NCBI RefSeq assembly: GCF_000271485.2
Contig: NZ_AKVN02000001.1
Location: 2,050,001 to 2,114,000, forward strand
Source of the DNA: Pelosinus fermentans DSM 17108
Lineage (GTDB): Bacteria > Bacillota > Negativicutes > DSM-13327
Reading direction: 5' to 3'
DNA length: 64,000 nucleotides
Positions 39,098-63,645 of this stretch are shown in pieces. Position 1 is the first letter of the stretch. Every line of letters starts with the position of its first letter. The translations under genes were made by a program, and so were the position numbers. Below the pieces are notes generated by a model. It searched no databases and was not told where the DNA came from. It worked only from the letters and a program-made list of their open reading frames with translations.

Positions 39098-39126
39098 TTG
39101 ACTATTGGAAAGTTTTATGTTAGAGT
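39098..39126 (+). promoter_or_regulatory. Sigma-A promoter before leader element 1
   Basis: TTGACT (39098-39103) and TAGAGT (39121-39126) have 17 bases between them. The predicted transcript starts about 20 bases before the leader element. Confidence 0.65.
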
Positions 39127-39150
39127 AGAACCAAAAATTAGTATCGTGTG

Positions 39151-39210
39151 GCTGATCAGGAGACTGAAGGCAAAGAAAATGGATTATTTTCTTTGCCTTC
39201 AGTCTTTTTC
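39151..39210 (+). promoter_or_regulatory. Leader element 1: CUGA/mini-hairpin/AGGC plus terminator
   Basis: CTGA, then TCAG-gaga-CTGA (4-bp hairpin), then AGGC. The CTGAAGGC segment is also the 5' arm of a 17-bp terminator stem (39164-39180 with 39186-39202) ending in TCTTTTTC. The second CTGA can therefore pair either upstream or within the terminator. It precedes the chimeric nitrogenase-like gene. See the finding on the 11 copies. Confidence 0.8.
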
Positions 39211-39315
39211 AAATAGAAAGATTTGATTCAAGCAGTATTTTTCTTGTATTTGCATCTTAGATTTGCTGGTGGGTCATAAAACTTTTAACAATGGTTAGGA
39301 AGAGGAGGATACGTG

Positions 39316-40281
39316 ATGAGTTACTTTTTGCAGAAAGAAGCGCCAAAGCGGGAACAACGCTTAAATGCATGCATTGCCAGCGGTGGGACCTTGTCGGATA
39401 TGACGAATCGGAAAATGAGATGTTGTGTACCAGATGGAGAGAGGACATTTACCCAAAATAATATCTGCTTACTGCTGCCAGCCTTAGGGATGATGAACAG
39501 CATACCGAATAGTGTTGTGCTGATGCATGGAGCGGTGGGGTGTGGATCTTCTTCTCATGGTGGAAATATAGGGGTTCGAGCTGGAAATAATCACCGCTGG
39601 GGTGTGATTAAAGATGGTACATGGCTTTCGACGGCTTTAAATGAGAGCGATGTAATCTGTGGGGGCGAAGAGAAATTAGAAGCTGCCATTCGTGAAATTG
39701 ATGAACATTATAAGCCCATGATTATCTTTGTTGTAGCCGGGATTGAAGCGGTTATTACTACTGAAAATCAACGCTATTATAAACTGCTTGAACCCCTTAC
39801 TGATTGCTACAATGATATGGATTTGCAGCGATATGCAGCTGTAGTGGGAGACTCTAATTATGCAACGGCCATTACTGCCTTTCTTGAAAATGATTTCGGA
39901 TGGCTCCCACAAGTAATCATCATTACGGATACATTAATGGAGGAGCAACAAGAGCGCATCGTAAATCGATTATCGAGTCTGAAATCAGGACGTATACCTA
40001 AAATTATTTTCAAAGGTGATTCAACAGATATTGCAAAAAGTATTAAAGAACATTGGGAAGGCAGCCAAACGCGATATGGAAAATATGTAAATGCATTATC
40101 ACCTGCATTTGTTGTTGGCAGCTCATTAGATCGGCCATTGGCACAAGAGTTAGGTGCTGCTCATTTAAGTATCAGTTTTCCTGTATCCAATAGAGCCGTA
40201 ATTGACCGAGGTTATACTGGCTACCAGGGCGGTTTGCGGCTGATTGAGGATCTGATTAGTGCCATTATCGTAAATCGTTAA
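39316..40281 (+). CDS. In-frame chimera of NifD-like N-half and NifK-like C-half
   Basis: A 321-residue protein, far shorter than its 440-500-residue relatives. Residues 1-146 match the N-terminus of the D-like protein at 47902 (REQRLNACIASGG, MHGAVGCG, GGEEKLEAAI). Residues 147-321 match the C-terminus of the K-like protein at 46546 (YNDMDLQRY, NDFGWLPQ, SPAFVVGSSLDR, GGLRLIEDLI). The junction is at the conserved cysteine motif, and that third P-cluster-type cysteine is now Ile143; Cys51 and Cys76 remain. The cofactor domain of both parents is missing. It has its own promoter and leader, an intact frame and GGAGG before ATG, so it may be expressed. Function unknown. Confidence 0.8.
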   Translation: MSYFLQKEAPKREQRLNACIASGGTLSDMTNRKMRCCVPDGERTFTQNNICLLLPALGMMNSIPNSVVLMHGAVGCGSSSHGGNIGVRAGNNHRWGVIKDGTWLSTALNESDVICGGEEKLEAAIREIDEHYKPMIIFVVAGIEAVITTENQRYYKLLEPLTDCYNDMDLQRYAAVVGDSNYATAITAFLENDFGWLPQVIIITDTLMEEQQERIVNRLSSLKSGRIPKIIFKGDSTDIAKSIKEHWEGSQTRYGKYVNALSPAFVVGSSLDRPLAQELGAAHLSISFPVSNRAVIDRGYTGYQGGLRLIEDLISAIIVNR

Positions 40282-40357
40282 AAGAGAAATGTTAATACGG
40301 ATAAATTTGTGTTTAAATGACAATTCTTTTTCTCCAGCTGTACTCGTAGCTCATAGT

Positions 40358-40420
40358 GCTGATTAGGTGAAACCTAAAGGCAAAGAAGTTTCCTTTCAGG
40401 AACGTTCTTTGCCTTTTTTA
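40358..40420 (+). promoter_or_regulatory. Leader element 2 with terminator
   Basis: CTGA, TTAG-gtgaaac-CTAA, AGGC (40359-40381), then a terminator stem with GGCAAAGAA and TTCTTTGCC and a T run. It precedes the YezD, flavoprotein, nifB and D/K gene series. No clear promoter was seen in front; readthrough or a weak promoter is possible. Confidence 0.75.
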
Positions 40421-40467: not shown

Positions 40468-40839
40468 ATGCCGAAATACCTTAAAAAGGAACCTAATTCT
40501 ACCGAATCTCAGCCAATTCAAGTATTAGAAATTATTAATTATTTTTTACACACTGCTTATAGTGGATTTTTGATCGTATCAGTACAAGATGGATATGTTG
40601 TTAAAATGGAGAAAACAGAAAGATTTACGATTACAGCCAAGAGCCGTCAGGGAAGTTACGTGAAAATTGAGAAGCCTAAAGAGAAACATCCTCTTTGCGT
40701 ACGAATATTAACAGAGCTGCAAGATATTCGTTATGGTCAGCTGATCATTCGTTTAGATAATGGGCAAGTGGATCATTTGGAGAAAACAGAAAAAAGACGC
40801 ATTCATGAATTTGAAGGAGTTGATGGAGCGGGCATATGA
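40468..40839 (+). CDS. Tandem YezD-like (DUF2292) protein
   Basis: A 123-residue protein made of two YezD-like units, VLEIINYFLHTAYSGFLIV ... EKTERF (residues about 19-55) and CVRILTELQDIRYGQLIIR ... EKTEKRR (about 77-112). Single-unit YezD is a short Bacillota protein often found near sulfur-assimilation genes; its function is not known. The duplication within one chain is unusual. It opens the transcript after leader element 2 and so links the nitrogenase-like set to sulfur supply. Confidence 0.75.
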   Translation: MPKYLKKEPNSTESQPIQVLEIINYFLHTAYSGFLIVSVQDGYVVKMEKTERFTITAKSRQGSYVKIEKPKEKHPLCVRILTELQDIRYGQLIIRLDNGQVDHLEKTEKRRIHEFEGVDGAGI

Positions 40840-46260: not shown

Positions 46261-46282
46261 GAAATAAATGTTATATATTCTA

Positions 46283-46346
46283 GCTGATCAGAGAAGCTGA
46301 AGGCTAAAGTATTTTGCTGCTAGCAAAATACTTTAGCCTTTTTTAT
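46283..46346 (+). promoter_or_regulatory. Leader element 3 with terminator
   Basis: CTGA, TCAG-agaag-CTGA, AGGC (46284-46304), then a terminator stem GGCTAAAGTATTTTGC with its complement and TTTTTT. It starts about 15-20 bases into the transcript and is the first of two tandem copies. Confidence 0.82.
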
Positions 46347-46388
46347 TTTTTAAAATTGATATTAGCTAGATAATAAGGAAATTTAGTC

Positions 46389-46475
46389 TATAATGAAGTT
46401 GACTGATCGGCAGACCATGCCGAAGGCAAAGAAAATTCTTTCTGTATAGAAAGAAATTTTCTTTGCTTTTTTTAT
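46389..46475 (+). promoter_or_regulatory. Second -10 box and leader element 4 with terminator
   Basis: TATAAT (46389-46394) lies nine bases before CTGA, TCGG-cagaccatg-CCGA, AGGC (46403-46427). A transcript from here would begin almost at the motif. A terminator with GGCAAAGAAAATT and a T7 run follows. With element 3 it makes a tandem arrangement before pair B. Confidence 0.8.
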
Positions 46476-46545: not shown

Positions 46546-47886
46546 ATGAGCAATTTTATCGACAGACCACGTTATTTATGTACTATGGGAGGGGCGGTGT
46601 CAACTCTAAAAGCACTGCCGAGAGCGATTTCAATTATTCATGCAGCTGCTGGCTGCGGCGGTAATTTTGGCAATGCATTAAACGGCGCTGCTGGCTACTT
46701 GGGAAGCGGATATTGTGCTGGGCAGGCATTACCCAGTTCCAATGTTTTTGAAAGAGACATTGTATTTGGTGGTGAGGAGCGATTAGAGGAACAAATTGCT
46801 AGTACCTTAGAAATTGTTGATGGAGATCTATATTTTGTTGTTACAGGGTGTATGGTAGATATTATCGGCGATGATGCAGTGTCAGTCGCTAGAAGATTTA
46901 ATCAGCAGGGAAAGCCGGTTTTTGCCGCTGAAACAGGGGGATTTAAAGGAAATGCCTACACCGGATATGATATTGTTCTGAGTACATTATTTAGAGATTT
47001 TGTGGAAAAAAGGCCAGTAAAAAATAAAAAGATTGTGAACCTATTCGGTCTGGTTCCCATCCAGGATGTATTTTGGAAAGGAAACTTAAATGTATTAAAA
47101 GATTTAATTCAAAAATTAGGCTATAAAGTAAATACCTTTTTTGGTGAAGGAGAAACCATTGAAAATTTAAAACAAGCTGGTGAAGCTCATTTGAATATTG
47201 TGGTGTCCGATGTCTATGGTGTTAAATCGGCGAAAATATTTGAAGAAATTCATGACGTTCCCTATATTGTTGCAAACTTGCCGATTGGACCTGCTGGTAC
47301 AAAAGAATTCTTAGAGACAGTAGGCAAAGCGCTAGGGGTGGATGAACTGCTGGTTTCAAATGTAATAGCAGAAGAAAAAGCCCGTTATTACAGCTATGTA
47401 GAACGATTGGCTGATGTCTACAATGATTTGGATTTTCAACGTTATAGCGTAGTGGTTGCAGATGCAAATTATGCTCCAGCACTAACAAGATTTATTGCTG
47501 ATGATTTAGGGTGGCTGCCGGAATTAGTTGTAATTACAGATCTTCTTTCCGAAGATGAGGAAAAGCTGGTCGCAGAGAAATTTACTACGTTTTCATCCGG
47601 TGTCATTCCCAAAGTGGTGTTTGATACGGATACTTCCAACGTGAGCAAACATTTTAATAAAGCATGGCCGCGTAATAATAATAATCGCTATTTTAATGCT
47701 TTTAGTCCAGCATTCGTTTTTGGCAGCAGCTTGGACAGAGAATTTGCCGATAGCCTAGGAGCTGCGCATTTAAGTGTATCCTATCCCATATCCAACCGGG
47801 TTGTTTTGGATCGTGCCTATTTAGGCTATAGTGGGTCCTTACGTTTAATTGAAGATGTTATAGGATTATTAGTAGGCAGCAGATAA
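46546..47886 (+). CDS. Nitrogenase-like K subunit, pair B
   Basis: A 446-residue K-like subunit. P-cluster-type cysteines are Cys12 (YLCTMGGAV), Cys37 (HAAAGCGG) and Cys102 (VTGCMVDIIGDD). The C-terminus (SPAFVFGSSLDREFADSLGAAHLS) is the parent-like match of the chimera at 39316. In this pair the K gene comes first, the reverse of pairs A, C and D. It is driven by the tandem leaders and followed 15 bases later by the D gene. Confidence 0.87.
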   Translation: MSNFIDRPRYLCTMGGAVSTLKALPRAISIIHAAAGCGGNFGNALNGAAGYLGSGYCAGQALPSSNVFERDIVFGGEERLEEQIASTLEIVDGDLYFVVTGCMVDIIGDDAVSVARRFNQQGKPVFAAETGGFKGNAYTGYDIVLSTLFRDFVEKRPVKNKKIVNLFGLVPIQDVFWKGNLNVLKDLIQKLGYKVNTFFGEGETIENLKQAGEAHLNIVVSDVYGVKSAKIFEEIHDVPYIVANLPIGPAGTKEFLETVGKALGVDELLVSNVIAEEKARYYSYVERLADVYNDLDFQRYSVVVADANYAPALTRFIADDLGWLPELVVITDLLSEDEEKLVAEKFTTFSSGVIPKVVFDTDTSNVSKHFNKAWPRNNNNRYFNAFSPAFVFGSSLDREFADSLGAAHLSVSYPISNRVVLDRAYLGYSGSLRLIEDVIGLLVGSR

Positions 47887-47901: not shown

Positions 47902-49410
47902 ATGGACTATATTAAAGAAAAAGCACCACCTGTGCGGGAAGAACGATTGCGGGCTTGTAATGCATATGGTGGATCTTGTGGAAATTTGGTAGAGAAGTCT
48001 AAAAAAGGATGCCTGAATGGGATTAAAAGAAAGTTTTCTCAAACCCAAGGGTGTCAACTGAATCTAAGTTTGGCAATTATCAATACCATTCGGGATGCTG
48101 TCGTCATTGTTCATGGTCCTGTTGGCTGCGGCGGTGCTAGCCTAGCCCAAGCCGGTGTGAATAAGGGGTTTCAAAAATTGCGGGATAGCAATGCCCGAGG
48201 GCTCATATGGGTAAATACAAATATGGGGGAAAACGAGGTTGTTCAAGGGGGAGAGTCTAGGCTCCGAGACGCTATATTGCATGCAGAAAAGGAGTTTCGT
48301 CCCAGTGCGATTATCATTGTAAATAGCTGTGTACCAGCGATTATTGGTGATGATATCGATGGTGTTGTTGAGCAGGCACAAAAAGAAGTCAAAGCCAAAA
48401 TCGTCCCTGTTCATTGCGAAGGATTTAAGACGAAGATTATGGCGAGTGCTTATGATGCTGTCTATCATGGCATACTTCGCAACTTAATACCTCATGAGAA
48501 GATCATTCAGGATGAAAAAACTGAATTAGAAGCATTGCAAGAAAAGTACCGCGCGAGTCGTACTGTCAATGTATTGAATGTTTCTTCCATGAGCCGTATT
48601 GATGAGTATGAATTAGTTCGCTTATTGAAAGCGATTGATTTGGAATTAAATATTCTTCCTTGTTATGCTCATCCAGATGATTTTCAAAAAGCCACTGAAG
48701 CTGCTTTAAATGTAAGTATTTGTGCTACTCATGATGATTATTTCGTAGAACATTTAAAAGAGAAATATGGTATTCCTTTTATTCTTCGCACGATTCCCAT
48801 TGGAGTTCAATATACCAATCGATGGATTTTAGATATTGCTAAATTTTTTGGCGCTGAAGAGGCTGCTCAGCGTTTTATCGATCAAGAAGTAAAACAACTA
48901 GAAGAAGCCATTGCTCCCTTTAGAGATATATTCAAAGGGAAGAGAGTATTAATTGGCGGTGGTGAAATTCGCGTTGTTGCCAATGCAGAGCTATTACATT
49001 ATTTGGGATTTGAGATTATTGGACTAAGAGCATATCATTATGACCAATTTGCCGATGAAATGCTCGGTGAGCAAGATATTATTAAGCAAATTCCTTTTAA
49101 TGTTGCAACAGGTCAACCTTTTGAACAGGCAAATCTAAATCACAATTTAAAGCCTGACTTATATGTTGGTCATGTGAATACGAATGTGTGGGCTGCCAAA
49201 CAAGGAATTCCAGTAATACCTTTGTTCCACCAAAGCCAACTATTCTTAGGCTATACTGGAATTTACGAATTTGCCAGACGTTTAGCCAGAATATTGCGGA
49301 ATCCTTCTTTTAATCGTAATTTTAAAGATAATGTTCACCTTCCTTACTTTGAAGAGTGGTATGAAAAGGATGCCTTTTCCTACATCGATGAAAGTGAGCT
49401 GCAGGCCTAG
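47902..49410 (+). CDS. Nitrogenase-like D subunit, pair B
   Basis: A 502-residue D-like subunit of a branch distinct from pairs A, C and D. It begins MDYIKEKAPPVREERLRACNA. Cys51 (QGCQLNL), Cys76 (HGPVGCGG) and Cys143 (NSCVPAIIGDD) fit a P-cluster site. SICATHDDYFVEHLKEKYG holds the cofactor-type cysteine. Unlike the other D subunits, a histidine (PLFHQSQLFLGY) lies near the place of the NifD His ligand. Cysteine synthase follows 56 bases later, linking this pair most directly to sulfide use. Confidence 0.87.
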   Translation: MDYIKEKAPPVREERLRACNAYGGSCGNLVEKSKKGCLNGIKRKFSQTQGCQLNLSLAIINTIRDAVVIVHGPVGCGGASLAQAGVNKGFQKLRDSNARGLIWVNTNMGENEVVQGGESRLRDAILHAEKEFRPSAIIIVNSCVPAIIGDDIDGVVEQAQKEVKAKIVPVHCEGFKTKIMASAYDAVYHGILRNLIPHEKIIQDEKTELEALQEKYRASRTVNVLNVSSMSRIDEYELVRLLKAIDLELNILPCYAHPDDFQKATEAALNVSICATHDDYFVEHLKEKYGIPFILRTIPIGVQYTNRWILDIAKFFGAEEAAQRFIDQEVKQLEEAIAPFRDIFKGKRVLIGGGEIRVVANAELLHYLGFEIIGLRAYHYDQFADEMLGEQDIIKQIPFNVATGQPFEQANLNHNLKPDLYVGHVNTNVWAAKQGIPVIPLFHQSQLFLGYTGIYEFARRLARILRNPSFNRNFKDNVHLPYFEEWYEKDAFSYIDESELQA

Positions 49411-62178: not shown

Positions 62179-63645
62179 ATGCCGATTAATTTAAACGTAA
62201 CTTCAGCAGGCACCCGGGAAAACAGGTTAGGATCGATTACGGGATATGCAGGGGATCTTCATGATTTAGTTAACCAGAGCAGATGCGGGACGCTAAAAGA
62301 AAGGGAAAGGTGCTTTAGTCAGTCAAGTTCTTGTGATGCGGGATGCGCCTTGAGCCAGCTTGCCTACATTCGGGATGTTGCCATCATCAATCATGCGCCC
62401 TCAGGCTGCACTGCAATGGCATCAGCAACGATTGTGGCTCATACACAGCTTGCAGCGAAGAGAGGACTTGCCTATGATACTATTTTTCTAGGAACAGATA
62501 TGGATGAGAATGATACGATTTTTGGTGCAACCATCGGTCTTCGGGAAATCATCTTGGAGACATATAACAGATATAAACCCAATGCCATTTTCGTCGGAAC
62601 CTCTTGCGTATCTGGGATTATCGGTGAAGATGTGGATAGCGTAATAAATGAACTTGCATCAGAGATTCCGATTCCTTTAGCAGCAGTCCATTGTGAAGGA
62701 TTTAAATCGAGAGTATGGGCATCCGGTTTTGATGCAGCAGATCATGCTGTACTTACAAGTCTGGTAAAACCACCCCAGAGAAAGACAAATCTCATTAACT
62801 TTAAGAATTTTAATGAAAATGCTAGAGGAGAAATCACTGAACTATTTGCTAATTTCGGTGTAGAGCCTTTTTTCTTGTATTCAAATTCAACGGTTGAGGA
62901 ACTGTCACATATATCCGAAGCCCTTGCTACAGTATCCATATGCGGTACATTAGGTACGTATTTAGGGAATGCCCTGGAAGAAAAATATGGGGTTCCTTAT
63001 ATAAAAACAATCAATCCTTTAGGCATTGCCGGTTTTGAAATTTGGCTAAGAGAAATAGGTCGTGTGATTCATCAAGAAACAGAAGTGGAAGCTTATATTG
63101 AACGGGAGAGGGCAAAATATCTGCCTAAAATTGAAGAAATAAAAAAAGAACTCAAAGGACTGCGTGCCGTTTTAGGCATGGGGGCCAGCTATGCTTTTCA
63201 AATATCGCGTGTTTTACAGGAGCTTGGGATAAAAGTAGTATGGGTGGCTTCATGGCATTATGATACGAAATATGATAACAATGAAATTCCGCCTCATGTA
63301 GAGTATTTGGAAAAAGAAAGTCCCTATAATTTTAAAGTAAGTGTTTCCGATCAACAGAATTTTGAAATTCTTAATATATTAAATACCTATCAGCCCGATA
63401 TTTATCTAGCTAGGCACCCTGGTACGACGGTGTGGGCGATTAAACAAGGGATTGCAGCCTTCTTTTTAGCAGATGAGTATAAGACATTTGGGTATCGTGG
63501 TACGTTGGATTTTGCTCAGACGATACTCGATACGATTCGCAACCGAAGCTTTGAAAAAAATTTAGCAGCTAGGATTACCCTTCCTTACACTGATTGGTGG
63601 TATCAGCAGAATCATGCAGCTTTTTTAAAGGAGGATTCAAAATAA
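62179..63645 (+). CDS. Nitrogenase-like D subunit, pair D
   Basis: A 488-residue D-like subunit very like pair A (MPINLNVTSAGTRENRLGSITGY). P-cluster-type cysteines are Cys52 (SSCDAGC), Cys77 (HAPSGC) and Cys143 (TSCVSGIIGED). SICGTLGTYLGNALEEKYG holds the cofactor-type cysteine. The His-ligand region reads FLADEYKTFGYRG, with no His. Its stop abuts the K gene start. Confidence 0.88.
   Translation: MPINLNVTSAGTRENRLGSITGYAGDLHDLVNQSRCGTLKERERCFSQSSSCDAGCALSQLAYIRDVAIINHAPSGCTAMASATIVAHTQLAAKRGLAYDTIFLGTDMDENDTIFGATIGLREIILETYNRYKPNAIFVGTSCVSGIIGEDVDSVINELASEIPIPLAAVHCEGFKSRVWASGFDAADHAVLTSLVKPPQRKTNLINFKNFNENARGEITELFANFGVEPFFLYSNSTVEELSHISEALATVSICGTLGTYLGNALEEKYGVPYIKTINPLGIAGFEIWLREIGRVIHQETEVEAYIERERAKYLPKIEEIKKELKGLRAVLGMGASYAFQISRVLQELGIKVVWVASWHYDTKYDNNEIPPHVEYLEKESPYNFKVSVSDQQNFEILNILNTYQPDIYLARHPGTTVWAIKQGIAAFFLADEYKTFGYRGTLDFAQTILDTIRNRSFEKNLAARITLPYTDWWYQQNHAAFLKEDSK

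Follow-up and report, generated by a model that had tools for sequence, protein, structure and literature searches.

An in-frame fusion by deletion, like a young pseudogene, involves two adjacent genes, one deletion, a reading phase kept by chance and a joint without conservation. The leader RNAs of antitermination systems of the RAT/BglG and ANTAR types, and small riboswitches, carry a covarying hairpin that shares its 3' strand in part with the 5' arm of an intrinsic terminator, and they lie close ahead of coregulated genes; ANTAR leaders have two hairpins with hexanucleotide loops ahead of the terminator. The locus described here lies in a window of 64,000 nucleotides from Pelosinus fermentans DSM 17108, the whole stretch of DNA that was analysed. 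Compared with ordinary deletion fusions, its only oddity is that the fused genes encode subunits of one nitrogenase-like enzyme, whose nearest counterpart among solved structures is methylthio-alkane reductase (Mar). In that enzyme, MarD residues 66, 91, 158 and 270 and MarK residues 32, 56 and 121 are ligands of the P-cluster and the [Fe8S9C] cluster (PMC12552129).

The fusion is a single open frame of 321 aa on the forward strand (39316..40281), with an additional in-frame GTG start at 39313, one codon upstream. An earlier note on this DNA had described it as an in-frame chimera of a D-type and a K-type subunit, and this is borne out: residues 1-141 are D-type, residues 143-321 are K-type, and Pfam matches Oxidored_nitro as two pieces. 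The D-derived half (39316..39740, forward) comprises codons 1-141 plus two bases of codon 142, and the K-derived half (39741..40281, forward) runs from K codon ~270 to the native K stop. The deletion junction at 39740..39741 (forward) hence falls inside codon 142, and not between residues 146 and 147 as first placed. The joint had also been assigned to a cysteine motif shared by the two subunits, which is correct for the D side, where it lies just ahead of the D cysteine (intact D reads V-A/T-G-C143-V-P-G-I-I), but not for the K side, where K residue ~270 is far from GCMVDII. Likewise, GIEAVI is not a degenerate form of the shared motif, as had been thought: its K part, IEAVI, is K residues 270-274, with the K cysteine motif lying approximately 170 residues further upstream, and the fusion lacks K residues 1-269. 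The promoter, leader and ribosome site claimed for the intact frame are all present and kept in relatives, although the promoter (TTGACT-N17-TAGAGT, 39098..39126, forward), found by eye and largely conserved in two relatives by alignment, is better called promoter-like.

Both halves occur in five relatives as separate full-size frames (D ~500 aa, K ~450-467 aa), and D precedes K in every relative examined. Two of these five are Pelosinus, UBA6563 and P. propionicus DSM 13327, to whose D and K the fusion halves are 92-99% identical; at the DNA level the D half has 94-95% identity to the Pelosinus D genes and the K half 98% to UBA6563. Both flanks of the fusion are syntenic with the intact D-K locus of these two genomes, and base-by-base alignment shows 1868 bp absent from the window relative to UBA6563 and the same relative to P. 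propionicus. Alignment of the left flank extends to 39740 and that of the right flank begins at 39741, giving a blunt junction with zero shared bases, and no microhomology or direct repeats that fit were found at the deletion ends. In UBA6563 the segment missing here spans D codon 142 to K codon ~270. The D and K genes of that genome lie in different frames, with a one-base overlap, and the fusion is in frame because 1868 leaves the remainder required to keep phase. The deleted segment was not found elsewhere in the P. fermentans genome, which holds only four weak paralogue matches (67-85% in short stretches). Among 380 genomes of the class, one per species, a full-length match to the fusion is confined to its own genome; every other match is to a single half, and at least 10 further genomes carry the two halves in intact adjoining genes. 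A scan of genome contigs likewise found the chimera joint absent from 7 related loci. We therefore regard the fusion as very probably the in-frame remnant of a Mar-like D-K operon, left by a 1868-bp deletion private to this Pelosinus lineage, in which one event would have joined D codon 141/142 to approximately K codon 270.

A different origin had been proposed, in which the halves derive from pair B, a K-type (46546..47886, forward) and a D-type gene (47902..49410, forward) of the same window, through a deletion that ran from D into the following K of an ancestral tandem K-D-K-D array. The order of pair B is indeed K then D, and its products are the closest paralogues of the ancestral pair within the window. 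They are, however, not the source of the fusion: in BLASTP, fusion residues 1-140 have 33% identity to the pair B D protein (E 3e-25) and residues 143-321 have 48% identity to residues 270-446 of the pair B K protein (E 2e-64), and the halves stand at 33-49% to pair B against 92-99% to the separate Pelosinus pair, which is ordered D then K. A D-K deletion chimera thus remains from this proposal, but the array is refuted because the syntenic locus holds an intact D-K pair, and we give it practically no chance. Since the closest relatives have that intact D-then-K pair in this very position, a single deletion inside one D-K operon suffices. It is also very improbable that P. fermentans has an intact pair from which the assembly dropped 1.87 kb, given that the two breakpoints have no shared sequence able to mislead an assembler and that the genome is in 2 contigs, with the chromosome as one large contig.

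On sequence comparison, the ancestral D-K pair is closest to methylthio-alkane reductase. The best solved-structure matches of the intact D and K are MarD (E 5e-67) and MarK (E 2e-82) of Rhodospirillum rubrum (PDB 9FMG/9D9U), with Mar far ahead of NifD/NifK among solved structures. All P-cluster cysteines and the cofactor cysteine of MarD/MarK have aligned counterparts in the intact pair: D 51, 76, 143 and 265 of the relatives align with MarD 66, 91, 158 and 270, and K 12, 37 and 102 (UBA6563 numbering) with MarK 32, 56 and 121. A conserved His417 of the intact relatives, absent from the fusion, falls one column off MarD His429 (Mar-specific loop) in pairwise alignment. The name NifD-NifK used in the earlier note is not appropriate, given that the fusion scores 26.3 bits against nifD and 20.9 against nifK and that pair B, with 152.7 bits for D against nifD and 72.0 for K against nifK, is also far below the NCBIfam equivalog cut-offs (653.6 and 427.3 bits). 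Literature searches on Pelosinus nitrogenase genes gave nothing on point.

In contrast to Mar and to the intact pair, the fusion has lost the greater part of each subunit, and with it the cofactor cysteine and four of the six P-cluster ligands. D Cys51, Cys76, Cys143 and Cys265 are kept in 18/18 relatives and the three K cysteines in 15-16 of 16; the fusion retains only D Cys51 and Cys76 (2/6 P-cluster ligands), and the cofactor cysteine (D Cys265 equivalent) is deleted. Its product would bind neither the P-cluster nor the cofactor and would have no catalytic activity. This loss of metal ligands is stronger evidence for a pseudogene than the substitutions at conserved residues. The D half has three nonsynonymous changes, two of which (P9A and R11K) alter residues that do not vary among 18 relatives, whereas the third (V85I) is at a position where all 18 have V or A; together they hint at relaxed constraint.

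It is unlikely that the fusion has been retained as a small functional protein, such as one that binds the intact subunits of the paralogues as a regulator or decoy. The open frame, its own leader, the promoter-like site and the ribosome site would fit such a role, as would the low nonsynonymous count. On the window branch since the UBA6563 split there are 4 nonsynonymous and 8 synonymous changes, with nonsynonymous changes below neutral expectation (binomial p 0.001), but these substitutions are few and undated relative to the deletion; most or all may predate it. The window branch is not distinguishable from its sister branches in substitution pattern (Fisher p 0.45). The dN/dS comparison suggested earlier thus does reveal a nonsynonymous deficit, yet in too few changes to test function. 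The suggested search for orthologues argues against a working protein, as the same joint occurs in 0 other of the 380 class genomes and no fusion orthologue is present in the five relatives or the 7 related loci; the changes at invariant residues and the missing P-cluster and cofactor cysteines point the same way. AlphaFold gives the fusion a pLDDT of 39.9, a weak point against it and in itself uninformative, given that a control run on intact K, with an alignment just as shallow, reaches only 50.5. The fusion ORF is most likely a young pseudogene that is still open and probably still transcribed, and it is probably not a working enzyme. The frame may have stayed open because the fusion is young, under its inherited promoter and leader.

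The fusion lies in a cluster of approximately seven nitrogenase-like D/K pairs or remnants within some 40 kb (2089-2129 kb of the genome; window 39-64 kb onward), which also holds cysK, ABC transporter genes and a gene similar to NifB. The D gene at 62179-63645 of the window has as its partner a K-type gene immediately beyond the end of the window, and this K gene is frameshifted near its residue 280 (147-1438 of L039; about 2113646-2114937 in the genome). It is a second sign, in line with the fusion being a remnant, that parts of the nitrogenase-like cluster are decaying in this genome.

The leader ahead of the fusion (39132..39210, forward) contains an asymmetric-loop hairpin (GGCU-GA-UCAG...CUGA-A-GGC) overlapping an intrinsic terminator, and is conserved in both UBA6563 and P. 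propionicus. Further copies in the window, all on the forward strand, are at 40339..40419, preceding the DUF2292 gene 40468-40839, and in duplicate before the pair B K gene (46264..46344 and 46383..46473). Using a covariance model built from 13 copies, we obtained 41 matches in the P. fermentans genome at E <= 0.05, which correspond to about 40 copies, several of the weakest matches being antisense echoes of the hairpins. Other Pelosinus genomes have 13-34 matches each, and at E <= 1e-6 the element is found in 55/200 genomes and 30/82 genera of the class. Tandem arrays of three to four copies, spaced by ~150-300 bases, were seen in two genomes (G007 contig C265, 302-821; G089 contig C268, 10124-10745).

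In P. fermentans, genes for homocysteine synthase and cysteine synthase A are among those that first follow the leader, as are a gene for a sulfonate-binding protein and a weaker SsuA-like one. Also among them are transporter parts of the taurine/sulfonate type, amino-acid-binding proteins and a methionine-aminotransferase-like gene, as well as several D/K genes, two NifH-like genes and two DUF2292 genes; some others, for instance a copper-receptor-like gene and a polysaccharide deacetylase, are without evident sulfur link. In other genomes the leader precedes cysteine synthase A (four), homocysteine synthase (two) and a sulfite-reductase-like gene. As the leader stands before each of two DUF2292 (PF10055) genes (window 40468-40839 and L098 2002-2388), DUF2292 may have a sulfur-related role. 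No Rfam family matches the leader, the hairpins giving only sub-threshold microRNA-type matches, and literature searches on the element gave nothing on point. It is apparently a large, undescribed RNA family upstream of sulfur genes.

The leader RNA can fold into a hairpin of the form N-GCU-GA-UCAG-loop-CUGA-A-GGC-N with a GA/A internal loop. In 53 distinct elements, parsed by their inner pairing and compared with shuffles that ignore relatedness, outer pairs 2 and 3 pair above shuffled partners (p 0.0004 and 0.0016), with exchanges from C-G to U-A and G-C and from G-C to A-U, and inner pairs 2 and 4 are above every shuffle. The 3' GGC of the hairpin doubles as the foot of the terminator. In the fusion's leader, the short 5' part alone folds the hairpin (-7.8 kcal/mol), and with the terminator included the hairpin is displaced (-33.9 kcal/mol). 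The arrangement is that of the RAT/BglG-type, ANTAR-type and small riboswitch leaders, from which the present one differs in having no Rfam match and sulfur genes downstream. An ANTAR antitermination leader is ruled out by one hairpin per element, with the GA/A internal loop and a loop of 4-9 nt in 52/53 parsed elements instead of double hexaloops.

The leader is a candidate sulfur-responsive antiterminator. If held by a protein or ligand, the hairpin would compete with the intrinsic terminator and lead to antitermination, and the genes downstream suggest sulfur supply as the likely signal. On balance we favour a joint reading in which an undescribed cis-regulatory RNA (GCU-GA-UCAG-loop-CUGA-A-GGC), bound by a protein or ligand and set against a terminator, would switch on a sulfur-acquisition regulon that includes many nitrogenase-like operons across the class, and in which the nitrogenase-like genes it controls would scavenge sulfur and not fix nitrogen.

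As an outcome, the leader is more useful than the fusion. As one more case of adjacent genes merged through a deletion, the fusion is unremarkable, and it warns that an open frame need not imply function. The widespread leader, which is not in Rfam, would group many nitrogenase-like genes with sulfonate transporters and the synthases of cysteine and homocysteine under common control. If confirmed, this regulon would provide a genetic handle on the role of poorly understood nitrogenase relatives.
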